A stretch of 64,000 nucleotides of DNA from Gayadomonas joobiniege G7 (GTDB lineage Bacteria; Pseudomonadota; Gammaproteobacteria; Enterobacterales; Alteromonadaceae): NCBI RefSeq assembly GCF_000300815.1, contig NZ_AMRX01000008.1:186001-250000 (forward strand), read 5' to 3'. The notes beneath the pieces are model-generated. The model was given only the letters and a program-made list of their open reading frames with translations, did no database searches and was not told where the DNA came from. Positions 10,969 through 49,904 of the stretch are shown here, one piece after another. The first letter of the stretch is position 1. Each line of letters opens with the position of its first letter. A program made the position numbers and the translations under genes.

Positions 10969-11403
10969 ATGAGCTCTGTAAATAGTACTTTATCTGAGTT
11001 ATGTAAATATGATTTTGATGCGGTTGCCGCTTATGAAGCCGCCATTGACAGAGTCGATGATAAAGACGCAAAAATTCAGCTGAAAGTACTTTGCGATGAA
11101 AACAAAAACCATACGGTTGCGTTAAATCGCTTTTTAAACCAGCGCGGGGAAGAGGCTGTTACAGGCCCTGATTCAAAAAAGTTATTGACCAAAGGCAAAG
11201 TAGTATTGGCCGATATTATGGGTGATGAAAAAATCATCGATGCTATGTTATCAAACGAAAAAGAGATGCTTAATAAGTACTCTGACGCGCTTGAACTGGA
11301 TGGTCTGACTGTGCAAGAACGAGAAATTTTAACTAAGCATTACAATGACGAGAAGCGTCACAAAGCTTGGTTAGAAGAGCTTTCAGGTTCGCTTAAGCAC
11401 TAG
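10969..11403 (+). CDS. Ferritin-like four-helix-bundle protein (DUF2383/PA2169 type)
   Basis: 144 residues, all predicted helical, with a strong AGGAGG ribosome site. Carboxylate/His pairs in the helices (DFDAVAAYEAAI, CDENKNHTVAL, NEKEMLNKYSDAL, HYNDEKRHKAWLEEL) match the ferritin-like DUF2383 fold, which carries E-x-x-H-type metal sites. Family members are small cytoplasmic proteins often induced by stress or stationary phase. A specific function is not established. Its stop codon overlaps the stop of the convergent LacI regulator by 4 bp. Confidence 0.75.
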   Translation: MSSVNSTLSELCKYDFDAVAAYEAAIDRVDDKDAKIQLKVLCDENKNHTVALNRFLNQRGEEAVTGPDSKKLLTKGKVVLADIMGDEKIIDAMLSNEKEMLNKYSDALELDGLTVQEREILTKHYNDEKRHKAWLEELSGSLKH

Positions 11404-12428
11404 TCAGAATATAGTCCCGTAGAATCGCGGACAACCAATTCCGGACGTACTAGGCATTTTTGCTGTACAGCGTCCGGATTGTTTTTTTCTATTTTTGCAA
11501 TCAGTTTACGTGCAGCATATTTGCCCATCTCACTGACCGGCCGTTTGATGGTTGTTAGCTCAGGAATAATACGGGATGCTAATAAGTTATCATCAAAACC
11601 ACAGACAGAAAGTGCTTCTGGCACCTTAATCGCTAACTCGTGAGCGGCTTTTAGTACGCCGGCTGCCATTTCATCGTTGTTGCAAAAAATCGCGCTGGGG
11701 CGTGGATTTTGTTTTAATAAATCAAGTCCTTTTTTAATCGCGGTATGGTAGTCATTATTGCCACTAACCACGAGTTCTTTAGGCAACTTTAAACCCCGTT
11801 CTTTTATTGCTTCAATAAAACCAAGCTGACGCTCTTTCGATGAACGGTAATTGTCAGGGCCAGTCATCAAGGCAATTTGTCGATGCCCGAGATCTACTAA
11901 AAACTGTGCCACTTCAGCCGCCGCGGCTCTATCATCTGACATGATAAAATTTTCGGCCACCTCATTAGTACCTGAAACTAATCGCACAAAAGGGATTTCT
12001 TGTTCTGTTAACACTTCACCTAAAGCATCAACTTCAGAAGCAGGCGGTAGCACTATCACGCCATCAAGTTTAGAGCGGCGAACAAAATTTAAAACATTTT
12101 GCTGAAAGTCAGGGCTTTTGTAGCGGCACGGGTGAACTACTAATTCGTAACCTTGCTGGCTGCATACAGATAAAATCCCCCTTTGAGCGTCATCAATGAA
12201 TAAAGCGTCTGGATTATCGTAAACCAAACCTAATAAATACGAACGGCTAGAGGCAAGGCCCCGGGCTTGTTTGTCTGGTACATAATTGTATTGTGCAATA
12301 ACCTCGGTAACTTTTGCTTTAGTGGCCGCACCCACTTTAGGGGAGTTATTTATAACACGGGATACAGTACGTTTAGAAACGCCAGATAAGCGTGCAATAT
12401 CATTAATGGTTATTTTTTGGTCAGGCAT
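11400..12428 (-). CDS. LacI family transcriptional regulator, probable repressor of the gluconate/hexuronate genes
   Basis: 342 residues. An N-terminal LacI helix-turn-helix (residues ~6-30, ITINDIARLSGVSKRTVSR) and hinge helix (RGLASSRS) precede a periplasmic-binding-protein-like effector domain (from ~65, YLLGLVYDNPDALF). It is divergent from the gluconokinase/LarA operon. The palindrome TGCTACCGGTGGCA lies 95 bp upstream of its start and 109 bp upstream of the kinase. Such a position suggests autoregulation and control of the operon. The same palindrome occurs before uxaC and a uxuB-like gene in this window, so the effector may be gluconate, mannonate or a derived sugar acid. The effector and the site assignment are inferences. 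Confidence 0.9.
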   Translation of the reverse strand: MPDQKITINDIARLSGVSKRTVSRVINNSPKVGAATKAKVTEVIAQYNYVPDKQARGLASSRSYLLGLVYDNPDALFIDDAQRGILSVCSQQGYELVVHPCRYKSPDFQQNVLNFVRRSKLDGVIVLPPASEVDALGEVLTEQEIPFVRLVSGTNEVAENFIMSDDRAAAAEVAQFLVDLGHRQIALMTGPDNYRSSKERQLGFIEAIKERGLKLPKELVVSGNNDYHTAIKKGLDLLKQNPRPSAIFCNNDEMAAGVLKAAHELAIKVPEALSVCGFDDNLLASRIIPELTTIKRPVSEMGKYAARKLIAKIEKNNPDAVQQKCLVRPELVVRDSTGLYSD

Positions 12429-12522: not shown

Positions 12523-12536
12523 TGCTACCGGTGGCA
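12523..12536. promoter_or_regulatory. LacI-type operator TGCTACCGGTGGCA, copy 1
   Basis: A 14-bp near-perfect palindrome with central CG, as LacI-family operators have, in the divergent region between the LacI regulator gene and gluconokinase. Copies differing by at most one base lie at 38650-38663 and 47017-47030. Confidence 0.72.
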
Positions 12537-12644: not shown

Positions 12645-13130
12645 ATGATATACATTGTAATGGGAGTAAGTGGTTGCGGTAAGTCTCTGATCGCAGAAAA
12701 ACTTGCTGCCGAACTCGCTTTGCCGTTTTTTGATGCCGATGATTTTCATAGCCCCGAATCTGTTGCTAAGATGTCACAAGGCATCGCATTAACGGATGCT
12801 GACCGCGAGCCATGGCTGCAGGGGTTAGCTAAACAAAGTTTGTTGTGGCAACAAGAAGGGGGGGCTGTTTTAGCCTGTTCAGCGTTAAAACAAAAGTACC
12901 GAGATTGGTTAGCGAGCTCGCAGCCTGACGAAGTGCAATTTGTTTATCTAAAAGGATCTTTTGAGCTAATCGAGAGTCGATTATCGGCGCGTAAAAATCA
13001 TTTTATGGCGGCGTCTTTGTTAACCTCTCAATTTAATACGTTAGAGGAGCCACAAGACGCTATTATTGCAGATATCAGTGAGTCCCCTGAGCAGATCGTG
13101 GCCAAAATTTTACAGGAGATCAGAGCATGA
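12645..13130 (+). CDS. gntK: Gluconokinase (GntK family)
   Basis: 161 residues, the usual size of the small cytoplasmic gluconate kinase. The Walker A motif GVSGCGKS is at residues 7-14, followed by DADDFH (31-36), KMSQGIALTDADREPWL, the ACSALKQKYR segment and SQFNTLEEP near the C-terminus, all GntK signatures. It phosphorylates D-gluconate to 6-phosphogluconate with ATP, feeding the Entner-Doudoroff or pentose phosphate route. It is the first gene of an operon: its stop overlaps the LarA-type start by 4 bp (ATGA), which ties the nickel enzyme to gluconate. Probable control is by the operator at 12523. Confidence 0.93.
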   Translation: MIYIVMGVSGCGKSLIAEKLAAELALPFFDADDFHSPESVAKMSQGIALTDADREPWLQGLAKQSLLWQQEGGAVLACSALKQKYRDWLASSQPDEVQFVYLKGSFELIESRLSARKNHFMAASLLTSQFNTLEEPQDAIIADISESPEQIVAKILQEIRA

Positions 13131-14416
13131 GTTATCCGATCCATATTGAAGATACTGAAAATACCCTCTCGGACGATGATTTAAAAATTATCCTGGATAA
13201 ATTTATTGCAGAAAAAGCCCAGCAAGCAAAACGTGTATTAATTTTACCGCCCGATATTACCCGTTTTTATTCAAAAGCCGGTTTTATCTCTGCATATTTG
13301 TATCAACAATTGAAAAACCAAGCCGAAGTTTATTTTTTACCAGCTTTGGGCACTCATGATCCTATGACAGACAAAGAAATAGAGCTTATGTTTGGTCCTG
13401 ATGTGCCAAAAGACAGGTTTGTTCCTCACAGGTGGCGCACTGACGTTAAAAAGTTTGGGGAGATCAGCGGTCAGCGAATTGCCGAATTATCAGAAGGCAA
13501 GTTAGATTACAGCATGGATGTTGCGGCAAACAAACTCCTAGACGAAGGTAACTGGGATCTTATTGTTTCGGTTGGACAAATTGTTCCACACGAAGTCATT
13601 GGTATGGCTAACTATACTAAGAATATTTTAGTGGGCACCGGGGGCTCAGATACCATTCATAAATCGCATTTTTTAGGCGCTGTTTATGGCATGGAACGTA
13701 TTATGGGGCAAATCCGTACTCCAGTTCGAAATGCCTTAGATGAAGGTTTTGATCAATATTTACGTCATTTGCCAATCGAATTTATTTTAACTGTGCTTGG
13801 TAGCAAAAATGATAAGTTAGCGCTGCAAGGTGTATTTTGTGGTAATCAAGCTGATACTTACACTCAAGCATGCAAACTAAGCCAACGGTTAAATTTAAAC
13901 TTACTTGATAAACCCATTAAAAAAGCTGTGGTGTACCTAGAACCAGGTGAATTTAAAACGACTTGGTTAGGTAATAAAGCCATTTACCGCACCCGTATGG
14001 CCATGGCTGATGATGGAGAATTGATTGTTTTGGCCCCTGCGCTGCATAGATTTGGTGAAGACATGGAAATAGATGCCCTGATCCGAAAATATGGTTATAA
14101 AACGACCGAAGAAACTTTGCAAGCTGTTAAAGATAACCCTGAGTTAGCCAATAACTTGTCGGCGGCAGCGCATTTAATTCATGGCACGGCAGACAAACGA
14201 TTTAAAGTGACTTATTGCCCAGGAGATGGCGTGAGCCAAGCCGAAATTGAATCTGTGGGTTATGAATATTGCCATTACCAAGAGATGATAAAACAATATC
14301 CTCTGGATAAAATGAAAGATGGATGGAATACCTTAGCGTCTGGTGAGGAGGTATTTTATGTTAGCAATCCAGCTTTAGGTTTATGGGCTCATCGGGAGAA
14401 ATTTGTTGAATCTTAA
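13127..14416 (+). CDS. LarA-superfamily nickel-pincer racemase/epimerase, probable D-gluconate 2-epimerase
   Basis: 429 residues, full length for LarA. Residues matching Lactobacillus plantarum LarA are present with the right spacing: Asp43 and Arg46 (PPDITR), His77 (GTHDP), His155 (VPHEV, like His174), Lys165 ten residues later (like Lys184, which binds the nickel-pincer nucleotide) and His181 another 16 on (like His200, a nickel ligand). It should therefore bind the cofactor made by the LarC, LarE and LarB proteins encoded downstream. The LarA superfamily includes lactate and malate racemases and a D-gluconate 2-epimerase that interconverts gluconate and mannonate. The 4-bp overlap with gluconokinase favours that activity. 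Substrate specificity is inferred from context. Confidence 0.85.
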   Translation: MSYPIHIEDTENTLSDDDLKIILDKFIAEKAQQAKRVLILPPDITRFYSKAGFISAYLYQQLKNQAEVYFLPALGTHDPMTDKEIELMFGPDVPKDRFVPHRWRTDVKKFGEISGQRIAELSEGKLDYSMDVAANKLLDEGNWDLIVSVGQIVPHEVIGMANYTKNILVGTGGSDTIHKSHFLGAVYGMERIMGQIRTPVRNALDEGFDQYLRHLPIEFILTVLGSKNDKLALQGVFCGNQADTYTQACKLSQRLNLNLLDKPIKKAVVYLEPGEFKTTWLGNKAIYRTRMAMADDGELIVLAPALHRFGEDMEIDALIRKYGYKTTEETLQAVKDNPELANNLSAAAHLIHGTADKRFKVTYCPGDGVSQAEIESVGYEYCHYQEMIKQYPLDKMKDGWNTLASGEEVFYVSNPALGLWAHREKFVES

Positions 14417-15674
14417 ACAAATAAACCATTTGCATTTAGATGTAGCTGGCGGTATCGCCGGCGATATGTTTATTTGCGCCTGTATTGGTTTACAGCCAGA
14501 ATTTAAAATAAAAATTGAAGCTTTGGCCGCGCAGTTGCTGCCGTCAGCGGCTGGCCAACTAAAAATATTTGAGGCGAATAGTAGTGGCATTGGCTGTTAT
14601 AAGCTGAGTTTAACCTCTGAACAGCCGGTAGATAGCTCAGTTCGGTTAACACAAAATGCAGATAAACATCACCATCATCATTCGGCAGAAACATCTTATC
14701 AGGCGCTAAAAAACCGTTTATTGGCGCTGCCTATCTCGTCTTTGCACTGTCAAATTTCGTTGCAAATTTTAACCATAATAGCAACCGCTGAAGCAAAAAT
14801 TCACCAAACCGATTTAAATCATGTGCATTTTCACGAACTCGCCGATTGGGATTCGTTTTTTGATGTGCTGGCAGCCGGGTACCTGTTATCTCAGCTTGCT
14901 GGCATAAAATGGTCAGTGTCTGAATTGCCACTCGGTGGCGGTATGGTAAATACTCAACATGGCTTGTTAGCCGTTCCAGCACCGGCAACAGTCGAAATAT
15001 TATCGGGTTTTGAATTTCGTGATGATGGTATTAAAGGCGAGCGTATTACCCCAACGGGTGCTGCGATTTTGCGTTATCTAAAAGACGCCGATCTTTTAAT
15101 AGATAAAAAACCACCACTAAAATTGCTTGGATGCGGGTATGGTGGTGGCCACAAAAAGTTTCCAGGCCTGCCCAATGTGCTGCGTATCATGGCTTTTAGC
15201 CAAAGCCAGCAATCGCAAGAACCCGATCAGCGCCATCAAATCAGTCAGATTCAATTTGACGTAGATGATATGACGGGGGAAGAGCTGGCATGGGCGCTTG
15301 ATAAACTACGCGAACAAGCCGGAGTATTGGATGTAACCGCAGTCACAGCGCGCGGTAAAAAAAATCGTGCGAGTGAGCAAATTTCTATTTTGCTTAAACC
15401 TAGCGCGCTAACGGCTGTAATTGATGCTTGTTTTAATTTCACCTCAACGATCGGCTTGCGTTGGCTGCATCTTAACCGATCCTGTTTATCGCGCAGCGAA
15501 ATGAATTTGGCACATGGCTACAGTATTAAAACAGTACAAAGACCGGCTTTTGCTGGGCACGAGATGCAAAACACACAAAAAGTCGATAGTGATGGTTTGT
15601 TTAACTGTCAGAGTTTGCAGCAGCGTCGTCAGTTAAAACAACAATTAGAAGCTCCAAATGAAATCAGCAAATAA
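14403..15674 (+). CDS. larC: Nickel-pincer cofactor nickel insertase LarC
   Basis: 423 residues. The N-terminal LHLDVAGGIAGDMF motif (residues 10-23) is the LarC signature. A His-rich run of five (residues 89-93) fits nickel handling. Conserved later features include VHFHELADWDSFFDV, GVPAPAT-like AVPAPATVEIL, GERITPTGAAIL and IQFDVDDMTGEELA. LarC uses CTP to insert nickel into the dithiolated nicotinate mononucleotide made by LarB and LarE. In L. plantarum it needs a programmed frameshift joining two frames; here it is one continuous frame. Start is TTG at 14403 (or 14406), overlapping LarA by 14 bp, with GGGAGAA just upstream. Confidence 0.9.
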   Translation: MLNLKQINHLHLDVAGGIAGDMFICACIGLQPEFKIKIEALAAQLLPSAAGQLKIFEANSSGIGCYKLSLTSEQPVDSSVRLTQNADKHHHHHSAETSYQALKNRLLALPISSLHCQISLQILTIIATAEAKIHQTDLNHVHFHELADWDSFFDVLAAGYLLSQLAGIKWSVSELPLGGGMVNTQHGLLAVPAPATVEILSGFEFRDDGIKGERITPTGAAILRYLKDADLLIDKKPPLKLLGCGYGGGHKKFPGLPNVLRIMAFSQSQQSQEPDQRHQISQIQFDVDDMTGEELAWALDKLREQAGVLDVTAVTARGKKNRASEQISILLKPSALTAVIDACFNFTSTIGLRWLHLNRSCLSRSEMNLAHGYSIKTVQRPAFAGHEMQNTQKVDSDGLFNCQSLQQRRQLKQQLEAPNEISK

Positions 15675-16479
15675 CAAACTTAACCGTCTTGTTGAGGTAT
15701 TATCCAGTTACCCAAAACTGGCGATTGCCGTGAGCGGCGGCATCGATAGCATGTTACTTATGTATATCACACATCATTATTCTATTAGCCAAGCAGAAGC
15801 TGTGCACGCATACTCAGCCGCTGTGCCTAGCTCGGCTTATGCTTTGTTAGATAAATACACACAGCGATATCAATGGTCATTGACCCTAATCGATGCTAAA
15901 GAATTAGCCGATCCCCAATACCAAAAAAATCCACTTAACCGCTGTTATTATTGCAAAACTAACTTGTATCAACGAATAGCTGAGCAGTTTAAACAACCTA
16001 TAGCATCGGGGACAAACCTTGATGATTTAACGGATTTTAGACCTGGCCTGAAAGCAGCCAAAGAGCATAACGTGGTGCAACCTTATGTCGAAGCGGGTAT
16101 TAGCAAAACAGATATCTATCAAATGGCAAGCGAACTTAATTTAACGGAATTGCAAGATCTACCCGCACAACCTTGTTTAGCCAGCCGAGTGGAAACTGGC
16201 ATTATGATTGAAGCTGATAAACTCACCTTTATTGATCAAGTTGAAGAAAGTGCAAGGTTTTATGTTGGCAGCGACAAAGTGATCCGCTGCCGACTGACTC
16301 AGGCTGGTGTGATATTGCAATTAAGCAGGCTACCAACGGCTGAACAGTCTGTGCCTATGTTGGTAAAAGTACGTCAACTGTGTGAATCTCAAGGACTGGT
16401 TTTTTTGGGGGTTGAGCCGTATCAAAAGGGCTCTGCTTTTATTCATAGCGACACTGGAGCCTATTATGCAGCGGGTTAA
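15658..16479 (+). CDS. larE: Nickel-pincer cofactor sulfurtransferase LarE
   Basis: 273 residues. The PP-loop SGGIDS (residues 26-31) activates the pyridine carboxylate with ATP. Further LarE features are CYYCKTNLY (Cys96, Cys99), SGTNLDDLTDFRPGL and PCLASR (Cys173). Cys173 aligns with the cysteine that L. plantarum LarE sacrifices as sulfur donor; some other LarE proteins use an iron-sulfur cluster instead, and sequence alone does not settle which applies here. It converts the LarB product into the thio form. The start overlaps the larC 3' end by 17 bp, continuing the tight operon. Confidence 0.92.
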   Translation: MKSANNKLNRLVEVLSSYPKLAIAVSGGIDSMLLMYITHHYSISQAEAVHAYSAAVPSSAYALLDKYTQRYQWSLTLIDAKELADPQYQKNPLNRCYYCKTNLYQRIAEQFKQPIASGTNLDDLTDFRPGLKAAKEHNVVQPYVEAGISKTDIYQMASELNLTELQDLPAQPCLASRVETGIMIEADKLTFIDQVEESARFYVGSDKVIRCRLTQAGVILQLSRLPTAEQSVPMLVKVRQLCESQGLVFLGVEPYQKGSAFIHSDTGAYYAAG

Positions 16480-17128
16480 TTGGGACAGTCACCGCGCCGA
16501 ACGCACAGGTATTGCAGAAGCGGTTTATTGCCCGGGCAAAAGTGCCGGTGTCTTAATCGAAATTTTAGAGCATCATTTAAAAGCCGCCACTTCGGTATTG
16601 TTAACGCGTTTAGATCGTCAAGTGTATGACGGATTTGCAGACAGTTATAAAGCGCAGATGGAATACCACGAGCAAGGAAATATTGCGATTTTTAACAAAA
16701 AAGATAAAGCTCTGCGAGACTCCGAAATATGCATAGTGACAGCCGGCAGCTCAGATTTACGGCTGGCTTGTGAAGCGCAAGTCACTCTTAAATATTATGG
16801 ATACAATACGCCAGTGATCGCTGATGTGGGTGTTGCTGGCCTGCATAGATTGCTAAATAGGTTAGATGAAATCAAAAAATATAAGCTTGTAATTGCTATT
16901 GCTGGAATGGAAGGCGCTCTGTTTAGTGTTTTAGCGGGTTTGATTAGCGCGCCAGTGATTGCATTACCTAGCTCAGTTGGTTATGGCGTAAGTGAAAATG
17001 GGCAAGCCGCGCTGAGTAGTGCATTGTCAGCCTGTGCGCCCGGTATTTTAACGGTTAATATTGATAACGCTTTTGGCGCTGCAACCGCGGCCATTAAAAT
17101 TTGCCAGCAGTTTCTTCAATCGGAATAA
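16466..17128 (+). CDS. larB: Nickel-pincer cofactor carboxylase LarB
   Basis: 220 residues from the ATG at 16466, which follows TGGAGC and overlaps larE by 14 bp. An upstream in-frame extension lies inside larE and is not supported. LarB features are the N-terminal ERTGIAEAVYCPGKS motif, the TAGSSDLRLACEA segment, GVAGLHRLL, AIAGMEGALFSVLAGL and the AIR-carboxylase-like VIALPSSVGYG. LarB carboxylates and hydrolyses nicotinic acid adenine dinucleotide, the first step of nickel-pincer cofactor synthesis. It is somewhat shorter than many LarB proteins, mostly at the N-terminus. It is the last gene of the cofactor operon. Confidence 0.9.
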   Translation: MQRVNWDSHRAERTGIAEAVYCPGKSAGVLIEILEHHLKAATSVLLTRLDRQVYDGFADSYKAQMEYHEQGNIAIFNKKDKALRDSEICIVTAGSSDLRLACEAQVTLKYYGYNTPVIADVGVAGLHRLLNRLDEIKKYKLVIAIAGMEGALFSVLAGLISAPVIALPSSVGYGVSENGQAALSSALSACAPGILTVNIDNAFGAATAAIKICQQFLQSE

Positions 17129-17163: not shown

Positions 17164-17246
17164 CTAATATTAAACATTAGTAGTGAGTATATTTAAAAAA
17201 AGTTAATGATTTGTCTTGCATTGAACTAACTTTGAGACTAAATTAT

Positions 17247-17260
17247 CTTAAACGATTAAG
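17247..17260. promoter_or_regulatory. LacI-type operator CTTAAACGATTAAG, upstream of the MFS-GH32 operon
   Basis: A 14-bp imperfect palindrome with central CG, ending 20 bp before the MFS start. Its exact reverse complement occurs at 20211-20224 before the TonB-dependent receptor gene. It differs completely from the ACCGGT-type operator, so a different LacI-family regulator outside this window is likely. Confidence 0.65.
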
Positions 17261-17280
17261 TTTTATTAAGAGGCTAGTTT

Positions 17281-18510
17281 ATGCAATCGAGCAATATAGC
17301 AACCATTAAATGGTTAACCTATTTAATGTTTATGATGTTTGCGATGACCACAGACGCCGTGGGGGTCATTATTCCTGAGATCATTCGTGAGTTTGATTTA
17401 AGTTTAACGGCCGCAGGCGCGTTTCATTATGGGCCAATGGCGGCAATTGCTATCGGTGGTATTGGTTTAGGCTTTTTAGCCGATAAAATTGGCCGTAAAA
17501 AAACCATCATTATTGGCCTTGCATTATTTTCGGTGGCATGTGGATTATTTGCAGTTGGCAATACGTTTAGCTTTTTTTTGTTTTTATTGATTTTATCCGG
17601 CCTTGCCATTGGTATTTTTAAAACGGGTGCGCTGGCACTGATCGGAGATATTTCTACTACGGCAGAATCTCATACTAAAACCATGAATATTGCTGAAGGT
17701 TTTTTTGGTGTGGGGGCTATTATAGGTCCTTTTATTGTCACTGCATTATTGGCTGGCGGGGTAAATTGGAAATTTTTATATATCATTGCTGGTGTGATCT
17801 GTATCGTTTTATGCTTAATCGCAGCAGTTGTTGCCTATCCCAAACACATACAAGTAAATACAGATCAAATTAATTTATCGCGCACCATTACAATTTTAAA
17901 AAGTCCGTATGCGATGGGTTTTTCGGTTTTGATTGCGCTATACGTTGCAGCCGAGGCCGCTATTTATGTTTGGATGCCAACCTTATTAAAAGATTACACA
18001 GGTTCATATACATGGGCTGCAACCTGGTCATTAACCATATTTTTCACCTTTAGAGCTTGCGGTCGTTTTCTGGCAGTTTGGTTTTTAAACGTAGTTAATT
18101 GGAAAATTGCGATGGTCGTTTTTTCTGCGGCGATAGCCATATGTTATCTAGCCAGCATCTATTTTGGCTTAGCAGTCGCAGTGTTTTTATTGCCTTTATC
18201 CGGATTATTTATGGCCATGATTTATCCAACCTTAAACTCAAAAGGGATTAGTTGTTTTCCTAAACATGAGCACGGGGCGATCGCTGGTGTGCTGTTATTT
18301 TCCACCGCGGCGGCGGCTTCATTTGGACCTATGATCATGGGCGTGTATAGCGATTGGATGGGCGGAGAAGCTCGCCATGGGTTTGTATTAGCGGCGGGTT
18401 TTGCATTTTTATTATGTGTTGGTTGTGTTTACAACTGGATCTTTGATCCGACCGATCGACATATCAAAGCAGTCGAACAATTAGATCCATCAGTAGAATT
18501 AAATAAATAA
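17281..18510 (+). CDS. MFS sugar permease, probably for sucrose or a related sugar
   Basis: 409 residues with twelve predicted hydrophobic segments and the MFS loop motif GFLADKIGRKK (between TM2 and TM3). It is an inner-membrane symporter. The GH32 hydrolase starts 10 bp downstream and has no signal peptide, so this protein presumably imports the intact sugar that GH32 cleaves inside the cell. It follows larB by 152 bp but has its own operator (17247) shared with a TBDR gene, so it is read as the start of a separate operon rather than the gluconate carrier. A sugar-acid substrate cannot be excluded. Confidence 0.8.
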   Translation: MQSSNIATIKWLTYLMFMMFAMTTDAVGVIIPEIIREFDLSLTAAGAFHYGPMAAIAIGGIGLGFLADKIGRKKTIIIGLALFSVACGLFAVGNTFSFFLFLLILSGLAIGIFKTGALALIGDISTTAESHTKTMNIAEGFFGVGAIIGPFIVTALLAGGVNWKFLYIIAGVICIVLCLIAAVVAYPKHIQVNTDQINLSRTITILKSPYAMGFSVLIALYVAAEAAIYVWMPTLLKDYTGSYTWAATWSLTIFFTFRACGRFLAVWFLNVVNWKIAMVVFSAAIAICYLASIYFGLAVAVFLLPLSGLFMAMIYPTLNSKGISCFPKHEHGAIAGVLLFSTAAAASFGPMIMGVYSDWMGGEARHGFVLAAGFAFLLCVGCVYNWIFDPTDRHIKAVEQLDPSVELNK

Positions 18511-18519
18511 GGTATTAAC

Positions 18520-19968
18520 ATGCCAAATAATATTTTTACGCCACAGTGGCGTCCCAAAGTACACTTCACGCCACAAAAAAACTGGATGAATGATCCCAAC
18601 GGTTTAGTTTTTTACAATGGCCAATACCATTTATTTTACCAATACAATCCTCATGGCAATGATTGGGGTAATATGAACTGGGGCCATGCTAGTTCTACCG
18701 ATCTGATTAACTGGCAACATCACCCAATTGCAATTGAGATGGATGTAGCAGGTTTGGGTTACATTTATTCAGGCAGTGCAGTGGTTGATTTTAACAATAC
18801 CAGTGGTTTACAGCAGGGTGAAGATCCGCCGCTGGTTGCAATATTCACTCATACCCAAGCAGGCTGTGAAACCCAAAGGCAAAGTTTGGCTTTCAGCACA
18901 GACGGTGGTTTAAGTTGGCAGCAATATAAAAATAACCCTGTGATTGATAATCCAGGGTTGCTTGACTTTAGAGATCCTAAAGTATTTTGGCACACACCAA
19001 GCCAACATTGGATCTTGGTGCTCACCGCGGGTCATCAAATTAATTTTTATCGTTCCGAAAACTTATTCAATTGGCAATATATAAGCAGTTTCGGTGAAGA
19101 CGACGGCTGTCATGGCGGTGAGTGGGAATGTCCTGATTTATTTGAATTAAGGACAAAAGACGGTGAAAAAAAGTGGGTTTTACTAGTTAGTTTAGTGCCT
19201 GGTGGGCCAAATGGAGGCAACGGCACTCAGTATTTTGTTGGTGATTTTGATGGGCAAACCTTTGCACCAGAACATAAAGATGTGCGCTGGTTAGACTATG
19301 GACCCGATAATTATGCAGGTGTTACTTGGGACGGAAAACAAAAGTTAGACAATAGACGTACCTTGGTTGCCTGGATGTCGAACTGGATTTATGCCGCAGA
19401 CATGCCCACCTTTCCGTGGCGCGGCGCTATGTGTTTGCCTCGAGATTTATCATTGATAAAACACAATCAATCATTTTTTGTAAGCAATCAGCCGGCTAAA
19501 GAGATTGATGATAATCTAATTACTTTTGCGAAACATAGCCAAACTGCGACCGATGTTAATTGCGAACTGCCAACGGATAGTGCGTTAGATATTAAAGTGA
19601 GCGCTGAAGTAAACCAAGGCGATAAGCTTTATATTCGATTTAGCAACAGTGATGGTGAAGTTGTTGAACTGAAATACTTGCCAGATCATCAGAAAGTTGT
19701 TGTTGATCGCAGCCGAGCTGGTTGGCAATACAAGTTGTGGCGCACCCCGCGGTTAGAAGCAGATACCACCACATCTGAGGGGCTGATAAACTGTCGTTTA
19801 GTATTAGATGCCAGTTCCTTGGAGGTATTTTGGCAAGATGGAACTACCACGATGACAATTTGCCTTTTGCCAACTTCAGCGTTTAATAAAATCGAATTGG
19901 CAAGCAGTCAATTAGGCACTAAATGTCTTGAGTTATCTCGTATCCGGCACCAATCTGCTACCGATTAA
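18520..19968 (+). CDS. GH32 glycosidase, cytoplasmic sucrose/fructo-oligosaccharide hydrolase
   Basis: 482 residues with a five-bladed beta-propeller and a C-terminal beta-sandwich (from ~345). Catalytic residues of GH32 are visible: nucleophile Asp25 in WMNDPNG, transition-state Asp152 in FRDP, and acid/base Glu203 in EWECPD. There is no signal peptide, so it acts in the cytoplasm on an imported substrate, which favours sucrose or short beta-fructosides over levan or inulin. It is co-transcribed with the MFS permease (10-bp spacing). No fructokinase is in the window. Sucrose versus sucrose-6-phosphate cannot be told apart; the MFS rather than PTS partner suggests free sucrose. Confidence 0.92.
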   Translation: MPNNIFTPQWRPKVHFTPQKNWMNDPNGLVFYNGQYHLFYQYNPHGNDWGNMNWGHASSTDLINWQHHPIAIEMDVAGLGYIYSGSAVVDFNNTSGLQQGEDPPLVAIFTHTQAGCETQRQSLAFSTDGGLSWQQYKNNPVIDNPGLLDFRDPKVFWHTPSQHWILVLTAGHQINFYRSENLFNWQYISSFGEDDGCHGGEWECPDLFELRTKDGEKKWVLLVSLVPGGPNGGNGTQYFVGDFDGQTFAPEHKDVRWLDYGPDNYAGVTWDGKQKLDNRRTLVAWMSNWIYAADMPTFPWRGAMCLPRDLSLIKHNQSFFVSNQPAKEIDDNLITFAKHSQTATDVNCELPTDSALDIKVSAEVNQGDKLYIRFSNSDGEVVELKYLPDHQKVVVDRSRAGWQYKLWRTPRLEADTTTSEGLINCRLVLDASSLEVFWQDGTTTMTICLLPTSAFNKIELASSQLGTKCLELSRIRHQSATD

Positions 19969-20042: not shown

Positions 20043-20210
20043 GAGTCTAATTTTTAAGTTTTCAATTGTAACTTATCCCTTCCCAACGAATTTATTAATT
20101 AATTAAAAAAACGTTAAAAAACATTGGTTTATTGTTTTTTTTGTTATATTTAAAATAAATTAAATTATTTTGTTTACAAAATTAAAACATCGATCTATGA
20201 TTACATCAAT

Positions 20211-20224
20211 CTTAATCGTTTAAG
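20211..20224. promoter_or_regulatory. LacI-type operator CTTAATCGTTTAAG, upstream of the TBDR gene
   Basis: The exact reverse complement of the site at 17247, 87 bp before the receptor ATG. The pair links the permease/GH32 operon with the outer-membrane receptor as one regulon. Confidence 0.65.
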
Positions 20225-20311
20225 TTATTTTAGAATGTTGCTTTTCCGATTCTTAATTTAAGTCTGCGTGTGGTCGGCTTAGATACTTTTAACTTGTTTG
20301 GGGATACAAAG

Positions 20312-26679: not shown

Positions 26680-28107
26680 ATGTTTAAACTTGTATGCTAC
26701 TTACGGCAAAACGCGAAAAAGCTGAGCGTTTGGCTTAGCATGAGCTTATTTTTTTGCTCGTCCACCGCATTTGCAAAACAACCTAATATTTTATTTATTT
26801 TATCCGATGATGCGGGGTATCACGATTTTGGCTTTCACGGTAGTCAAACTATGAAAACGCCAAATTTAGATATGCTAGCGGAACAAGGTATTTTATTTAA
26901 ACAAGCTTATGTCAGCGCAGCGGTCTGTGGCCCGTCGCGAGCTGGAATTTTAACTGGACAATATCAGCAAAAGTTTGGTTATGAAGAAAACAACGTGCCC
27001 GGTTATATGAGTGAATCTGGCACCACGGGTGACGACATGGGCTTGCCGTTAGATTTAAAAATACTGCCAGAATATTTAAAAGAGCAGGGCTACCAAACGG
27101 CCCTAATCGGCAAGTGGCACCAAGGTAATGCAGATAGATTTCACCCGACTAAACGAGGATTTGATTATTTTTATGGATTTAGAGGCGGTGCCCGAAGTTA
27201 TTATGAGTTTAATGAAAAAAATAAAACCAGCCGCGACGAGGATTATCTAGAGCAAGGTTTTAAAAATTATAAAGAATCTAAAGATTATTTAACCAAAGCA
27301 CTAGCCGATAGCACCATTGAATTTATTGAAGATAATCAAAATAAACCATTTTTTGCGTTTTTATCTTTTACCGCCGTGCATACGCCAATGGAAGCGATAC
27401 CCGAAGACCTGGCTCAGTTTCCAGACCTAAGCGGTAAGCGTAAAACGTTGGCCGCCATGACCTTAGCTATGGATCGGGAAATTGGTCGTGTACTGTCTAA
27501 ACTAGATCAATTAGGTTTAGCCGACAATACAATCGTGGTGTATACCAACGACAACGGTGGCCCAAGTGATACAAATGCGTCAAACAATGCGCCTTTTTCT
27601 GGTACCAAAGCAAATCACTATGAAGGCGGCATTCGAGTGCCTTTTATTTTGCGTTGGCCAAATTTAAAAACCGACCTTAAGACCTACAACTCACCTATTA
27701 TTACGTTAGATTTATTACCGACTTTTGTGCATGCCGCTGGCGGAAATGTTGGCAACAACCAAGCGTTAGATGGGGTTAATTTAATCCCTTATTTAGAGGG
27801 AAAAAAATCGCCCCCTGCGCATCAGCGCTTGTATTGGAAAAAAGAAAATCGAGGTGCAATCCGTGATGGTGATTGGAAGCTATTAAGATTTCCTGATAGA
27901 CCCGCCGAGTTATATCAAATCGCGGAAGATCCCGCGGAACAAAATAACTTGGCTTATCAGTATCCAGAAAAAGTTAAAGCTTTATATAAAGCGCTATTTG
28001 ATTGGGAGCTTACGCTAGAACGACCTTTATGGCAGCTTAAACGTGAGTTTGAGGGTAAAGCTATGCAGCGTATCGACAGTTATCGTCAACCGCCGGTTTT
28101 AGATTAA
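26680..28107 (+). CDS. S1 family sulfatase
   Basis: 475 residues with a long signal region ending near STAFAKQ (residue 33), so it is exported. The metal-binding SDDAGYHD follows at 42-49. The S1 signature CGPSRAGILTG places the maturation cysteine at Cys83; it must be oxidised to formylglycine for activity. A GKWHQG motif follows, then NDNGGPS with further calcium-site residues, and a C-terminal AELYQIAEDPAEQNNLA tail. It removes sulfate esters from saccharides, here presumably algal galactan fragments. Probably co-transcribed with the next sulfatase (26 bp apart). Subfamily and regiospecificity cannot be assigned by eye, and no maturase gene is in the window. Confidence 0.92.
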   Translation: MFKLVCYLRQNAKKLSVWLSMSLFFCSSTAFAKQPNILFILSDDAGYHDFGFHGSQTMKTPNLDMLAEQGILFKQAYVSAAVCGPSRAGILTGQYQQKFGYEENNVPGYMSESGTTGDDMGLPLDLKILPEYLKEQGYQTALIGKWHQGNADRFHPTKRGFDYFYGFRGGARSYYEFNEKNKTSRDEDYLEQGFKNYKESKDYLTKALADSTIEFIEDNQNKPFFAFLSFTAVHTPMEAIPEDLAQFPDLSGKRKTLAAMTLAMDREIGRVLSKLDQLGLADNTIVVYTNDNGGPSDTNASNNAPFSGTKANHYEGGIRVPFILRWPNLKTDLKTYNSPIITLDLLPTFVHAAGGNVGNNQALDGVNLIPYLEGKKSPPAHQRLYWKKENRGAIRDGDWKLLRFPDRPAELYQIAEDPAEQNNLAYQYPEKVKALYKALFDWELTLERPLWQLKREFEGKAMQRIDSYRQPPVLD

Positions 28108-28133
28108 ATTTAATAACAATAAGAGAGACTATT

Positions 28134-29594
28134 ATGAGAAAGTTATGCAAAAAGATTTTAAACAAGCCGATACAAATTGCTTGTTTAATACTTGCTGGGT
28201 TATCTACGGTGCAAGCGAATGACAGACCAAATATCATTGTTTTATTGGCTGACGATTTAGGCTATAACGATGTTGGTTTTACCGGCGAAACCCCTATTCA
28301 AACCCCTAATATAGACAAGCTGGCTAATAACGGGGTGATTTTTAAAAACGGCTATGTCACCCATCCTTATTGCGGGCCGTCGCGCGCTGGTATGTTAACT
28401 GGCCGCTATCAAGCGCGATTTGGAATGGAAAACAATGTTTCCTATTCGCCAGATGACAAATATATGGGCCTGCCGTTAACCGAAAAAACCTTTGCTAAAA
28501 GGTTGCAAGCCGTCGGCTACAAAACGGCTATCATTGGTAAGTGGCATTTAGGGGGGGCACCACACTTCCAACCCAATGAGCGTGGTTTTGATTATTTTTA
28601 TGGCTTTTTAGATGGTGGTCATCAATATATGCCGGGTGAAGAACATGTTGGTGCTGGCGGTTATTTATTACCTGTGATGCGTAATAAACAACCAGCTGGA
28701 TTTGATGAGTATTTAACCACTGCACTGAGCAAAGATGCGGCTCGTTTTATTGAGCGTAACCATAAACAACCCTTCATGTTGTTTATGTCATACAATGCGC
28801 CTCATGCCCCTTTGCAAGCCCCGCAAAAGACGATCGATAAATATAGCCACATAAAAGATAAAAACCGCCGTATTTATGCCGCTATGGTAGACGAGATGGA
28901 TCAGGGTATTGGCCATATTGTAAAAACGCTAGAAAAAACAGATTTACTCAATAATACTCTGATTTTCTTTTTGTCTGATAATGGCGGTGTGTATCCTGAA
29001 GAATGGTTACCCACTTTCGATTGGGCTGATAATAGCCCGTTTAGACGCGGTAAAGTTGCTTTGTTAGAAGGTGGAATCCACGTGCCTTTTATTGCCCATT
29101 GGCCTGCTAAAATTAAACCAGGTTTAACCTTTGATGGTTTGGTTTCGTCGTTAGATATCGCTGCAACCTCAGTTGCTATTGCCGGTGCTGATGATTCGGA
29201 TGGTCTATTAGAAGGTAAAAATTTAGTGCCTTACCTAACCGGTAAAAAAACAGGCTCACCTCATAAAGCTTTGTTTTGGCGGTTAGAAGAAGCTGATCAT
29301 ATTTATGCAGTTAGAACACCAACAGCCAAATATATGCGTCAGCCTTTGCCAAATGTCGGCCGCAGCTTTTTTGATATGGCCAAAGATCCTAACGAAACAA
29401 ATAACATTGTTGACCAGAGACCTAAACAGCAAGCAGAACTCGCTAAATTATGGAATCAGTGGAACAGCAAAAACATCAACAGCATATTGCTGCAGTCATG
29501 GGAATATAAAAAAGCACGTGACGATTTTTACCAACAACTGTTTGAGCAAAACAAAGCCGATGCTAAAAATAGGACGGTATATACCATTGAATAA
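28134..29594 (+). CDS. S1 family sulfatase
   Basis: 486 residues with a signal peptide (cleavage near VQAND, residue 29). Metal-binding ADDLGYND at 39-46 and CGPSRAGMLTG with formylglycine Cys80 mark a type I sulfatase. GKWHLGG and SDNGGVYPEEW follow in the expected order. It lies 26 bp downstream of another sulfatase; the pair likely removes different sulfates from the same polysaccharide. It is clearly a paralogue rather than a recent duplicate of its neighbour, since the two differ along most of their length outside the motifs. Substrate unknown. Confidence 0.92.
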   Translation: MRKLCKKILNKPIQIACLILAGLSTVQANDRPNIIVLLADDLGYNDVGFTGETPIQTPNIDKLANNGVIFKNGYVTHPYCGPSRAGMLTGRYQARFGMENNVSYSPDDKYMGLPLTEKTFAKRLQAVGYKTAIIGKWHLGGAPHFQPNERGFDYFYGFLDGGHQYMPGEEHVGAGGYLLPVMRNKQPAGFDEYLTTALSKDAARFIERNHKQPFMLFMSYNAPHAPLQAPQKTIDKYSHIKDKNRRIYAAMVDEMDQGIGHIVKTLEKTDLLNNTLIFFLSDNGGVYPEEWLPTFDWADNSPFRRGKVALLEGGIHVPFIAHWPAKIKPGLTFDGLVSSLDIAATSVAIAGADDSDGLLEGKNLVPYLTGKKTGSPHKALFWRLEEADHIYAVRTPTAKYMRQPLPNVGRSFFDMAKDPNETNNIVDQRPKQQAELAKLWNQWNSKNINSILLQSWEYKKARDDFYQQLFEQNKADAKNRTVYTIE

Positions 29595-37180: not shown

Positions 37181-38611
37181 TCACGCGCGAGTTTTTTGAT
37201 AGGCTTCTTTAGCTAAGCGATAACTAAGATCATGAATCAACTCAAATGCCGCCGACTCGGACAATCTATGCTCTGCTACTAATTGAGCTAAAAAGCGACA
37301 ATCAATTCTTCTTGCAACATCGTGGCGCGCTGGAATGGATAAAAAGGCACGGGTATCATCGTTAAAACCCACAGTATTATAAAATCCGGCTGTTTCGGTA
37401 ATATTGTGGCGATAGCGTAACATACCTTCTGGACTGTCATGAAACCACCACGCCGGACCTAATTTTAAACAAGGGTAGTGACCCGCGAGCGGAGCCAGTT
37501 CGCGTGCATAAGTAGACTCGTCTAGGGTGAACAAAATAAGCCGTAAATCTTTTTCGCTGCCAAAGCGAGATAACAGAGGTTTTAAGGCTGCAACAAAATC
37601 TGTTCGCACTGGGATATCACAGCCTTTATCTGGCCCAAAAGCCTCAAAAACCTTTACATTATGATTACGGTGACAGCCAGGGTGCAATTGCATCACCATA
37701 CCGTCTTCAAGACTCATGGCGGCCATTTCGGTCAGCATTTGAGCTCTAAAAAGCTCTCTTTGCTCAGTATTGGCGGTGCCCTGAATAACCAGATTGAATA
37801 ATTTTTCGCTATCGGCTGAGCTTAAATTGGCCGTTTTCGCGGACGGGTGTCCGTGGTCTGTAGCGGTTGCGCCATGTGCTCTAAAAAACTCACGACGGTT
37901 TTTAAGCGCATTTAAATAACCTTGCCAATTATCTGTGCTTTCGCCACTTAACTGAGCTAGCGTTTGCAAGTTATTTAGAAAGTTAGGATTGTCTGGGTCA
38001 ACGACGTCATCCGGCCTAAACGTGGTAATTACGGTATTTTCTAAACCAGTACCTTTAAGTTTGGCGTGATGCTTTAGTGGATCTGTTGCGCCTTCTGTGG
38101 TGGCTAATAATTCAATATTGAACTTTTTTAATAAAGCTCTCGGTTTAAAATCAGCACTCGCTAATTGTTGGTTTATGCTGTGATAATACTGCTCGGCATT
38201 CGCGCTGCATAGGGTTTCGGTAAAACCGAATACTTCACTAAACACATAATCCATCCAGATTCTGGAAGGAGTGGCATTGAACAGATGATAGTTGGCGGCA
38301 AAAATTTGCCATATTTTTAAATGATCGGTTTCACTTGCACCCCCATCTATGCGACGGATGCCTAACGCTTCTAATCCGATACCTTGGCTATACAGCATTC
38401 TAAATACATAATGGTCGGGAATTATGAGTAATTCGGTGGCGTTGTTAAAGTTCTTATTGTCGGCAAACCAGCTTGGATCTGTGTGGCCGTGCGGACTAAT
38501 AATAGGGACGTCCGAAATACTTTCATATAAAGCTCGGCTGATTTCACGCTGTTTAGGATCAGCGCTAAATAAACGGTCGGGATGTAGGTCTAACGCTTGA
38601 ATCTGCTTCAC
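37181..38611 (-). CDS. uxaC: Glucuronate (uronate) isomerase UxaC
   Basis: 476 residues, the usual length. It begins MKQIQALDLHPDRLFSADP and carries the metal-binding ISPHGHTDP motif (residues ~38-46), MLYSQGIGLEALGI, ATTEGATDPL, MVMQLHPGCHRNHN and FNDDTRAFLSIPARHDVARRIDC, all typical of the family. It isomerises D-glucuronate to D-fructuronate, and D-galacturonate to tagaturonate, in the cytoplasm. The operator-like palindrome TGCTACCGGTGGCA is 39 bp upstream of the start, tying it to the gluconokinase/LarA operon and to the uxuB-like gene. No other hexuronate gene is adjacent, so the pathway is scattered over the window. Confidence 0.93.
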   Translation of the reverse strand: MKQIQALDLHPDRLFSADPKQREISRALYESISDVPIISPHGHTDPSWFADNKNFNNATELLIIPDHYVFRMLYSQGIGLEALGIRRIDGGASETDHLKIWQIFAANYHLFNATPSRIWMDYVFSEVFGFTETLCSANAEQYYHSINQQLASADFKPRALLKKFNIELLATTEGATDPLKHHAKLKGTGLENTVITTFRPDDVVDPDNPNFLNNLQTLAQLSGESTDNWQGYLNALKNRREFFRAHGATATDHGHPSAKTANLSSADSEKLFNLVIQGTANTEQRELFRAQMLTEMAAMSLEDGMVMQLHPGCHRNHNVKVFEAFGPDKGCDIPVRTDFVAALKPLLSRFGSEKDLRLILFTLDESTYARELAPLAGHYPCLKLGPAWWFHDSPEGMLRYRHNITETAGFYNTVGFNDDTRAFLSIPARHDVARRIDCRFLAQLVAEHRLSESAAFELIHDLSYRLAKEAYQKTRA

Positions 38612-38649: not shown

Positions 38650-38663
38650 TGCTACCGGTGGCA
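38650..38663. promoter_or_regulatory. LacI-type operator TGCTACCGGTGGCA, copy 2 (uxaC)
   Basis: Identical to the 14-bp site at 12523-12536. It lies 39-52 bp upstream of the uxaC start, where a repressor would block transcription. Confidence 0.72.
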
Positions 38664-42431: not shown

Positions 42432-43994
42432 TTAATGCAAATGCAATTTAAACACGTTGGCTATATCGTTTAAACCATGTTCGGGCACTGTGAAATTAAA
42501 GCTATAACTATCGTCCAACCAGCTTATGTTCTCGCCACTGCTGAGTAAAGTCACTTTTTGTACTGGACTTGGCGGTGCGTATCTGTGGCGACCTAAAGGT
42601 TTTATTTTTATGGTGCTGCCGGCTTTAGGTCTACCTAATACAAAAACATAAATGGCTTTGCCATCTTTTGCTTGGGTAAAACGCACATCTTCAGCACTAT
42701 AATCTATTTTTGCCGATTGCCCATCATGGCTACTGTTTTTGCTGCCTGCTGTGCCGTAACCATAAGTATCATACGGGCGGGTATTGTAAACCGCCTCACC
42801 ATGTATCTTGAGCCACTGGCCGATTTGTTTTAATGCGGTGCGCTGAGGTTGGTTGATAGTGCCATTAGCCATGGGCGAGACATTTAATAATACAATACCG
42901 TTTTTACTCCAAACATCAATCATGTTGCGAATGACGAGTGCGGCATCTTTGTACTTTTCGCCTTCGATATATGACCAGCGACTCTCGCCCAAGGTAATAT
43001 CTGTCATCCACGGCAGTGGGTGTTGGTCGCGTCGCCCACCTTGCTCAAAATCCAGCACACTGTAGCTTAACGGCATGTCGTTGTGTTTGTGTACAGTCAC
43101 AACTTGCTGCCCAGTCTGCTCTGCATGATTGAAATAATGCGCGACCATTTGGTTACGATATGATTTAGGGATCATATTTAACCATGAATCAAACCAAATG
43201 ATATCGGGTGAATAATTGTCAACGACCTCATTGACTTGATCGAGCCAATATTGATTGAACTGATTTATATCTTCAAAGTTACCAAATAGCTTACGCAGTT
43301 TAGGATCATTGGTCGTGGTTGGCGAGCCTTCATACCAAGGGTAGTGACTATTAAAGTCTTTTACCCCAGTTGGACGGGGCCCTTTATTTCGCTGACCATT
43401 GCGCGCATGGTGAAAGGTTGCAATGGTTTTTAAGCCGTTTTTTTTAAGTGCCGTAAAAAGCTCGCCTAAAATATCTTTTTTCGGCCCCATGTCGGCAGCG
43501 TTCCAAGGATTCACTTCGCTATCCCACATTGCAAAACCGTCATGATGCTGGGCGACAGGGCCAGCAAATTTTGCACCAGAGGTTTTAAATAAGTTAGCCC
43601 ATTCTTCGGCATCAAAGTGCTCTGCCGTAAACATAGGAATAAAATCTTGATAGCCAAATTTTTCTACTGGGCCATAGGTTTTTACATGGTGTTTGTATAC
43701 TGGATGATTTTTACGGTACATGTTGCCGGGATACCAGGCAGTGCCAAAAGCAGGCACACTGTAGGGACCCCAGTGAAAATATATACCTAATTTTGCATCA
43801 ACAAACCACTCGGGCGCAGCAACATGCTGCACCAAAGAGGTTTCATTGGGGCTGTACTTTGGGTTATTGGCAAATACAGCGGGCGCACATAACAAACCAG
43901 AAGCGACAAGCCATGCGCGACAGATCTTGGACCAGTTTGCGGTGATTTTTGGTTTTTTTACCCCGGTTGTTGTAAACCCTGTTGTTGGTAACAT
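42432..43994 (-). CDS. GH29 alpha-L-fucosidase/alpha-L-galactosidase family enzyme
   Basis: 520 residues with an extended signal region ending near APAVFAN (residue 42). GH29 features are WFVDAKLGIYFHWGPYSVP (63-81), GPVAQHHDGFAMWDS (145-159) and the nucleophile Asp269 in DIIWFDSW, followed by a C-terminal beta-sandwich (~410-520). GH29 enzymes remove alpha-L-fucose. Members found with GH2 and S1 sulfatases in porphyran systems act on alpha-L-galactose, which differs from L-fucose only by a 6-hydroxyl. Here it is co-transcribed with a GH2 gene 11 bp upstream amid agar enzymes, so L-galactosidase activity on porphyran fragments is a reasonable inference. Confidence 0.88.
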   Translation of the reverse strand: MLPTTGFTTTGVKKPKITANWSKICRAWLVASGLLCAPAVFANNPKYSPNETSLVQHVAAPEWFVDAKLGIYFHWGPYSVPAFGTAWYPGNMYRKNHPVYKHHVKTYGPVEKFGYQDFIPMFTAEHFDAEEWANLFKTSGAKFAGPVAQHHDGFAMWDSEVNPWNAADMGPKKDILGELFTALKKNGLKTIATFHHARNGQRNKGPRPTGVKDFNSHYPWYEGSPTTTNDPKLRKLFGNFEDINQFNQYWLDQVNEVVDNYSPDIIWFDSWLNMIPKSYRNQMVAHYFNHAEQTGQQVVTVHKHNDMPLSYSVLDFEQGGRRDQHPLPWMTDITLGESRWSYIEGEKYKDAALVIRNMIDVWSKNGIVLLNVSPMANGTINQPQRTALKQIGQWLKIHGEAVYNTRPYDTYGYGTAGSKNSSHDGQSAKIDYSAEDVRFTQAKDGKAIYVFVLGRPKAGSTIKIKPLGRHRYAPPSPVQKVTLLSSGENISWLDDSYSFNFTVPEHGLNDIANVFKLHLH

Positions 43995-44005
43995 AGTGCC
44001 TCCTT

Positions 44006-46837: not shown

Positions 46838-46903
46838 AGGTGTTCCTTTTAATTCACCAGTATCAGAGTTGACAGTTTAAAATTTAAATATTGTATAGAT
46901 AAC

Positions 46904-46928
46904 TGTTAACACATTGTGTATTTGACAC
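46904..46928 (-). promoter_or_regulatory. GTGTC-N12-TGTTAACA motif upstream of GH2
   Basis: On the minus strand, GTGTC is followed after 12 bases by TGTTAACA, ending 67 bp before the GH2 start. The same arrangement occurs upstream of GH16 (48578) and GH50 (52056). This copy shares only the two blocks, so it is the weakest of the three. Confidence 0.4.
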
Positions 46929-47016
46929 ATGAAATTGTGATTTTTTATATGATTTTAAGTCTATGGTCGGTATAAACTAGGATTTTAGTGAGTATCAATT
47001 ATATTTGTTGCAGTGT

Positions 47017-47030
47017 TGCCACCGGTGGCA
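47017..47030. promoter_or_regulatory. LacI-type operator TGCCACCGGTGGCA, copy 3 (uxuB)
   Basis: A fully symmetrical 14-bp version of the sites at 12523 and 38650, 69 bp upstream of the uxuB-like start and 180 bp from the divergent GH2 start. Confidence 0.72.
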
Positions 47031-47098
47031 TATAGTGCGGTTAATCGCATGTAAAACGAACGTTAAAATTAACCTTAGACAGACAGGGGTGTTTAAAA

Positions 47099-48562: not shown

Positions 48563-48577
48563 GTTGAATAAAAATAT

Positions 48578-48602
48578 GTGTCGTTATTGTCTGTTGTTAA
48601 CA
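48578..48602 (+). promoter_or_regulatory. GTGTC-N12-TGTTAACA motif upstream of GH16
   Basis: It ends 33 bp before the GH16 start. Compared with the GH50 copy at 52056, about 25 of 30 positions match, including ATTATTGT-like spacer bases and the trailing ACAAAG, far more than the two core blocks alone. Confidence 0.5.
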
Positions 48603-48635
48603 AAGGTGAGGTAACACTAACAAAAAGGATAAATA

Positions 48636-49880: not shown

Positions 49881-49904
49881 TAGAGGAACAGGCAATTTTA
49901 TTTT

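Follow-up and report, generated by a model that had tools for sequence, protein, structure and literature searches.

A putative nickel-dependent D-mannonate-to-gluconate branch of hexuronate catabolism at a gntK-larA locus of Gayadomonas joobiniege G7

What would an enzyme of the LarA superfamily do when its gene overlaps that of a gluconokinase? The question is raised by a stretch of 64,000 nt from Gayadomonas joobiniege G7 (GCF_000300815.1; contig NZ_AMRX01000008.1, positions 186,001-250,000; hereafter, the window), where a gntK-larA-larC-larE-larB operon spans positions 12645-17128. An earlier interpretation of these letters, here called the sequence-only reading, had proposed that D-mannonate could be epimerised to D-gluconate and then phosphorylated, and our results favor this proposal. 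We consider it likely that the locus codes for a nickel-dependent branch in the catabolism of hexuronates, in which a LarA of group 18 (LarA-18) converts D-mannonate to D-gluconate, and GntK turns the latter into 6-phosphogluconate. This view is based on the group-18 model, the match to the epimerase GntE2, a set of invariant residues, the operon context and the operators, the gene neighbourhoods and GntK-LarA fusions of relatives, the co-occurrence with UxaC, and the presence of edd and eda in the genome.

LarA group 18 and its operon

In profile searches, the window's LarA is a member of NF052594 (LarA group 18, "putative hexonate epimerase"), with 615.7 bits against a cut-off of 500, and remains far under the models for lactate racemase (NF033504, 51.0 vs 460) and malate racemase (NF052593, 73.7 vs 500). 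By model, then, it is an enzyme of the group-18 hexonate epimerase type and not a lactate or malate racemase, and the grouping with those racemases that would have spoken against the earlier proposal was not found. Its best sequence match among solved structures is 4NAR (E 1.2e-29, with lactate racemases at about 2e-4), which is GntE2 of T. maritima (PMC7583248). A structure model built from 36 group-18 sequences (mean pLDDT 92.4), is likewise closest to 4NAR, with a TM score of about 0.79 and 22% identity in the structural alignment, while malate and lactate racemases and other LarA-like enzymes reach 0.56-0.69.

The nickel-cofactor residues listed by the sequence-only reading (Asp43, Arg46, His77, His155, Lys165, His181) are all present. 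When the window's LarA was aligned with the group-18 proteins of 35 of the 80 loci described below (n = 36), the residues binding the nickel-pincer nucleotide (NPN) or taking part in catalysis, namely R46, K165, H181, D43, H77, H155 and K284, were each invariant in 36/36; their LarA equivalents, assigned by eye on the alignment with 4NAR, are R75, K184, H200, D72, H108, H174 and K298, as named in PMC7583248. K284, the counterpart of the catalytic K298, was absent from the earlier list. Also invariant in all 36 proteins are E156, V157, A348 and H349, which match the E, V, A, H given as the usual GntE specificity residues in a 2024 survey (PMC11770544), A348-H349 being paired with LarA W358-T359 by motif and not by residue-level superposition. 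In the 2020 survey, group 18 is a hexonate epimerase only by hypothesis (PMC7583248), and no measured group-18 activity was named in the paper titles that we searched, most subscription journals being outside the coverage of that search. Here, gene context, operator and fusion would narrow the substrate pair to D-mannonate and D-gluconate.

The operon itself is as the sequence-only reading had described it, the overlaps agreeing with the coordinates of the open reading frames (ORFs), and all five genes exceed a curated family model. The first, gntK (12645-13130, + strand), encodes a gluconokinase of the GntK/IdnK type (TIGR01313, 168.7 bits, cut-off 113.75) that misses the narrower equivalog models NF008583 (149.8 vs 265) and NF007336 (134.4 vs 304), and overlaps by 4 bp, ATGA, with larA (13127-14416, + strand), the gene for the predicted NPN-dependent D-mannonate/D-gluconate 2-epimerase. 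There follow larC (14403-15674, + strand, TTG start), an unsplit LarC1-LarC2 nickel insertion protein in which LarC1 (152.9 bits, cut-off 90) and LarC2 (80.8, cut-off 50) share a single frame; larE (15658-16479, + strand), the sulfur transferase for the NPN cofactor (TIGR00268, 224.3 bits, cut-off 150); and larB (16466-17128, + strand), for NPN cofactor biosynthesis (NF033503, 250.5 bits, cut-off 175). The GTG listed as the larB start, at 16382, probably lies too far upstream; starting from the ATG at 16466, one obtains the LarB of 220 aa that was used in the family searches. Read by eye, LarE has a CxxC pair (NRCYYCK) and a later cysteine (PAQPCLASR), an arrangement that we take to indicate a possible iron-sulfur type of LarE, as opposed to the type with a single sacrificial cysteine.

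According to the route that we propose, D-glucuronate, and perhaps also D-galacturonate in those relatives with UxaE, would be brought to fructuronate by UxaC, and fructuronate would be reduced to D-mannonate by a UxuB-like enzyme. LarB, LarE and LarC would supply the nickel-pincer nucleotide to LarA-18, which, if it works as characterised members of the LarA family do, would invert C2 of D-mannonate by proton-coupled hydride transfer. GntK would then trap the resulting D-gluconate as 6-phosphogluconate, to be fed into the Entner-Doudoroff or the pentose phosphate pathway, and a LacI-family repressor would tie the three transcription units together. Both edd and eda are found in the genome, within a gene cluster whose order, judged by eye, is zwf-pgl-edd-glk-eda, so that 6-phosphogluconate can be used.

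The sequence-only reading had also held that such a route would be new as an assembled pathway, and this we cannot uphold. Rodionova proposed in 2012 that T. maritima epimerises mannonate to gluconate, with a gluconokinase and 6-phosphogluconate dehydrogenase to follow (PMC6978723, PMC7583248), and members of LarA groups 19 and 20 were shown in 2020 to convert D-mannonate to D-gluconate in vitro (PMC7583248); the concept of the pathway is therefore not new. T. maritima GntE2 (LarAH20; gntEK, UxaR regulon) has the same superfamily and fold as the enzyme discussed here, its gene also adjoins gntK, and uxaE and gnd are members of the same hexuronate regulon. It is, however, of group 20 and not 18, its regulator UxaR is of the GntR and not the LacI family, and kdgAK-uxuBA also lie within the UxaR regulon. 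GntE1 of C. glutamicum (LarAH19) shares D-gluconate 2-epimerase activity and a uronic-acid gene context, but belongs to yet another LarA group, and its KM for mannonate is very high (PMC7583248). The route of L. suebicus through a mannonate kinase and a 6-phosphomannonate 2-epimerase also connects the isomerase pathway with 6-phosphogluconate; in it, however, phosphorylation precedes epimerisation, and its genes are not identified in PMC6978723. What the present analysis adds is the assignment of group 18, the separate LacI regulon, linkage at the level of operons across several phyla, and the fusion of GntK with LarA.

A shared operator and its regulon

Divergent from gntK lies a LacI-family gene (11400-12428, - strand; Pfam LacI and Peripla_BP_3) for the presumed repressor of a regulon of three operons. 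Its putative operator, the palindrome TGCYACCGGTRGCA, occurs without mismatch just three times in the 3.91-Mb genome, where about 0.025 such sites would be expected from the base composition of the window. The three sites are TGCTACCGGTGGCA between lacI and gntK (12523-12536), which by eye adjoins a TTGACT hexamer resembling a -35 element; a site upstream of uxaC (38650-38663) that reads TGCCACCGGTAGCA on the - strand; and TGCCACCGGTGGCA upstream of the uxuB-like gene (47017-47030). The claim that uxaC and a uxuB-like gene share the operator of gntK is thus borne out. Imperfect sites are less telling: those with up to two mismatches number 36 in a scan of the genome, not far above the 24 of a reversed-pattern control, and a one-mismatch site at C2:467701 falls inside a coding frame. 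A promoter scan returned a promoter-like pair covering the operator for uxaC only, and by eye TTGACT or TTGACA precedes the operator at 7/7 lacI-gntK sites.

Footprinting across relatives supports the operator. The same LacI adjoins gntK in 5 of the 16 gammaproteobacterial larA loci scanned, and in each of these five the operator occurs without mismatch both between lacI and gntK and ahead of a uxaE-type gene (recognised as UxaE by Pfam in locus L043, and by similarity to the L043 gene in the other four); the remaining 11 loci have no perfect operator. In L043 the operator is also found before uxaC, and in L044 a version with one mismatch precedes uxuB. In Saccharobesus litoralis, perfect sites precede a fused gntK-larA, uxaC and an annotated TonB-dependent receptor, and a one-mismatch operator precedes uxaE. 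A further perfect site in this species (L143:26085) stands between YgjV-family and intron reverse transcriptase genes, with no pathway gene adjoining.

Of the two other units of the regulon, uxaC (37181-38611, - strand) encodes a glucuronate/galacturonate isomerase (NF002794, 567.7 bits, cut-off 387) whose best match in the PDB is the uronate isomerase 2Q01. The uxuB-like gene (47099-48562, + strand) encodes a reductase of the mannitol dehydrogenase family, presumed to be the fructuronate reductase giving D-mannonate, and relatives of it directly precede gntK-larA in L048 and L052. Around these two genes (26680-29594 and 42432-57779) are four sulfatases, a fucosidase, a GH2 protein, a GH16 protein, and a protein with a carbohydrate-binding module of the agarase type, surroundings that make an algal sulfated polysaccharide a plausible source of uronate. 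The MFS-GH32 genes directly downstream of larB (17281-19968) were considered as part of the system and set aside, because their upstream region has a different palindrome and not the larA operator. This second palindrome (around CTTAAACGATTAAG) occurs at 17238-17266 and 20205-20233 in opposite orientations, one copy ahead of the MFS-GH32 genes and the other ahead of the TonB-type gene that follows them, which suggests a separate regulon right beside that of larA.

Relatives, co-occurrence and a natural GntK-LarA fusion

A scan of genome contigs with LarA yielded 377 relatives, and neighbourhoods were drawn from the best 80 of these, which include Gammaproteobacteria, Lentisphaerota, Verrucomicrobiota, Kiritimatiellota, Bacteroidota and Planctomycetota; genes were called by similarity to a single reference protein or to a small set of them, and many of the contigs are short. 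The 16 gammaproteobacterial loci carry gntK (16), larE (16), larB (15) and larC (13) and, within the flanks examined, uxuB (7), uxaC (6), TRAP (6), uxaE (5) and gnd (3). In the 64 other loci we found gnd (22), a PfkB kinase (18), a short-chain dehydrogenase/reductase (SDR) of the D-mannonate oxidoreductase type (12), uxaC (8), uxaE (3), uxuA (3) and gntK (1), and the SDR of L101 exceeds the D-mannonate oxidoreductase model (399.3, cut-off 281). In C. agarivorans YM01 (L054), uxuB-uxaC-dctP-dctQ-dctM-gntK-larA-larE-larB, two ORFs and gnd form a single run with no larC within it, dctQ being assigned by position. L147 and L148 (genomes G453 and G768) combine uxuA, uxaC, a kdgK-like gene, uxuB, gntK-larACEB and gnd in one cluster; the UxuA and LarA routes can therefore coexist side by side.

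Some features of these loci differ from the window. No larC lies between larA and larE in L049, L054 and L044, and in L049 (Catenovulum sediminis) larB is also missing at the larA locus, copies elsewhere in these genomes not having been searched for; larC is present in other larA loci (L043/L055 and L045) from two of these species. After larB, a small membrane protein (Pfam DsbD_2) is encoded in L043 (14172-14852), with a similar ORF in 7 of the 16 gammaproteobacterial loci; the window has no gene of this kind after larB. In relatives, the protein contains LHAFDADHV, which we take to resemble the signature of nickel/cobalt transporters, and it may import nickel for the cofactor. In Bacteroidales (L098, L111, L109, L086 and others), the group-18 larA often has a PfkB kinase on one side and a PdxB-like 2-hydroxyacid dehydrogenase on the other, followed by gnd; the PdxB-like protein has no obvious role in the pathway.

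In S. litoralis CCB-QB4, GntK and a group-18 LarA are joined in a single 589-aa frame with no internal stop (WP_159084288.1, on plasmid NZ_CP026605.1; GntK 184.8 bits, cut-off 113.75; LarA-18 618.9, cut-off 500). Catenovulum maritimum Q1 (L044) has a 591-aa equivalent, called by similarity to both proteins. Fusions were thus found in two species among the 80 loci, two plasmids and seven further stretches, L145 being the same C. maritimum gene as L044, and L146 the S. litoralis gene again. None of the paper titles from our text searches named a GntK-LarA fusion, and a search aimed at it found no paper, coverage again excluding most subscription journals. The S. litoralis plasmid also carries larE, larB, uxaE, uxaC and gnd (annotated as 6-phosphogluconate dehydrogenase). 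A 2021 study of the CCB-QB4 genome reported uxaE, three uxaC, a fructuronate reductase and a mannonate dehydratase, and suggested that uxaE, the reductase and the dehydratase form no regulon (PMC7953866); the operator sites described above point to co-regulation of the fusion with uxaE and one uxaC. The fusion would offer an unusually direct handle on the pathway, being one protein whose product is traceable by a standard coupled assay. Two species have their larA operon on records that are filed as plasmids (NZ_CP026605.1, L143, 208 kb; NZ_CP109967.1, L144, 647 kb) and typed as non-mobilizable, and genes for group II intron reverse transcriptases lie no more than about 12 kb away.

Within the order, LarA-18 is rare (2/394 genomes over cut-off). 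Among 395 genomes of the family Alteromonadaceae, it occurs in 18, UxaC in 113 and UxuA in 58. All 18 LarA-18 genomes have UxaC, as compared to 95/377 of the others (Fisher p 6e-11, uncorrected for phylogeny; 8 of the 18 are from one genus), and 10 of their 22 larA copies are within 15 kb of a uxaC. The idea that LarA-18 replaces UxuA was rejected, UxuA being present in 4/18 LarA-18 genomes and 32/95 other uxaC-positive ones (p 0.42). Besides these four genomes with UxuA, seven have a high-scoring ManD-family dehydratase, three (that of the window included) have only a lower-scoring class of ManD, and four (G462, G572, G272 and G645) have neither UxuA nor ManD. Nor is the absence of a dehydratase a hallmark of LarA genomes, as ManD is also missing from 26 of 62 genomes positive for uxaC and negative for LarA-18 and UxuA (36/62 positive at an E limit of 1e-100; G734, a 63rd genome with a partial UxaC match, was excluded). 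In 38 hand-picked LarA-18 genomes (G000, which is the window's own, G272, and those that hold 36 of the 80 loci), UxuA had a match in 13, over cut-off in 11, and none in the 13 Alteromonadaceae-type genomes; the latter result is not general, because the family sample holds four Alteromonadaceae LarA-18 genomes with UxuA.

Other fates of mannonate, and what the branch would mean

The sequence-only reading had the LarA route bypass UxuA and 2-keto-3-deoxygluconate (KDG) kinase, and only part of this stands. UxuA has 0 matches across a genome that is 99.99% complete, and the case of a uxuA or kdgK elsewhere under the same operator was not encountered, since a genome scan placed no perfect or one-mismatch site near the ManD or KdgK-like genes. 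These genes do exist outside the window, however, and are among several observations that weigh against the route proposed here. The ManD-family protein (G000:C1:376836-378047, about 178 kb from larA) scores 662.8 bits against a cut-off of 550, and two kinases have KdgK as their best model, although under its cut-off (295.8 and 273.3 vs 400), so that mannonate may have a second fate. The uxuB-like protein is best described, out of the 13 subfamily models listed, by the fructuronate reductase model NF011611, but well below its cut-off (332.8 vs 603), with a D-arabinitol 4-dehydrogenase model near behind (317.2 bits), and its best PDB match is a mannitol dehydrogenase. In 39 of the 64 loci outside the Gammaproteobacteria, no gntK, gnd, uxaC or uxaE and no uxuB of either type was found near larA, which is due in part to the many short contigs. 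The association with UxaC lacks a correction for phylogeny. Lastly, a lack of growth on saturated galacturonate is reported for CCB-QB4 (PMC7953866), which counts against this route as a means for that strain to use free galacturonate; missing uptake could be an alternative cause, as the authors of that study discuss for a similar strain.

It is possible, if doubtful, that mannonate is mainly dehydrated to KDG by ManD and then phosphorylated by KdgK, with LarA as a minor or reverse side branch, a scenario compatible with the LarA activity that we propose. Such a scenario would account for the ManD and KdgK-like proteins and is in line with the clusters of G453 and G768 that hold both uxuA and larA. 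The window genome's ManD is 56-57% identical to eight canonical relatives and shares their HGA motif, where E. coli RspA has HGP. Its score, in spite of this, places it with six further matches in a lower class (638-675 bits, vs 717-750 for canonical proteins) that coexists with canonical ManD in G214 and G667, which hints at a different substrate. Its distance from larA, the absence of a perfect or one-mismatch operator, and the four LarA-18 genomes with neither dehydratase also argue against ManD as the main exit. By eye, the neighbours of the gene are a LacI-type gene, an oxidoreductase and a transporter; one KdgK-like gene is found among alginate lyase genes and the other beside a gnd-type gene.

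We regard it as unlikely that the epimerase serves another hexonate pair, such as altronate/allonate or an L-hexonate, with gntK phosphorylating its product and the regulon devoted to an unusual algal sugar acid. The KM of the group-19 enzyme for mannonate, 120 mM, led its authors to suspect an isomer (PMC7583248), which could be the true substrate for group 18 too; the neighbouring kinase in Bacteroidales is of the PfkB type and not GntK, and the UxuB-like protein is no clean UxuB. Against this are the GntK/IdnK-type kinase in the operon, fused to LarA in two species, and the neighbouring UxaE, UxaC, D-mannonate oxidoreductase SDR (L101) and 6-phosphogluconate dehydrogenase, which best fit the gluconate route. 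An ordinary lactate or malate racemase operon beside gntK by chance seems highly improbable: LarB, LarC and LarE are common to lactate racemase systems, but the scores of LarA far below both racemase models and the fusion of a group-18 LarA to GntK in S. litoralis oppose this idea, lactate or malate genes near larA not having been searched for.

A gluconate branch starting from D-mannonate remains, in our opinion, the best account of the locus. Whether its reach is broader we judge to be an even question, namely that group 18 is a widespread and dedicated D-mannonate 2-epimerase of uronate degraders, that it provides the sole exit for mannonate in some marine species, that it also exists as a fused bifunctional enzyme, and that growth on algal uronic acids depends on nickel. 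If the proposed route is correct, an untested LarA group would gain a substrate and a pathway, part of the breakdown of uronates in marine and gut environments would be nickel-dependent, and uronate carbon would reach 6-phosphogluconate, with access to NADPH and pentoses, and not 2-keto-3-deoxy-6-phosphogluconate (KDPG) directly.

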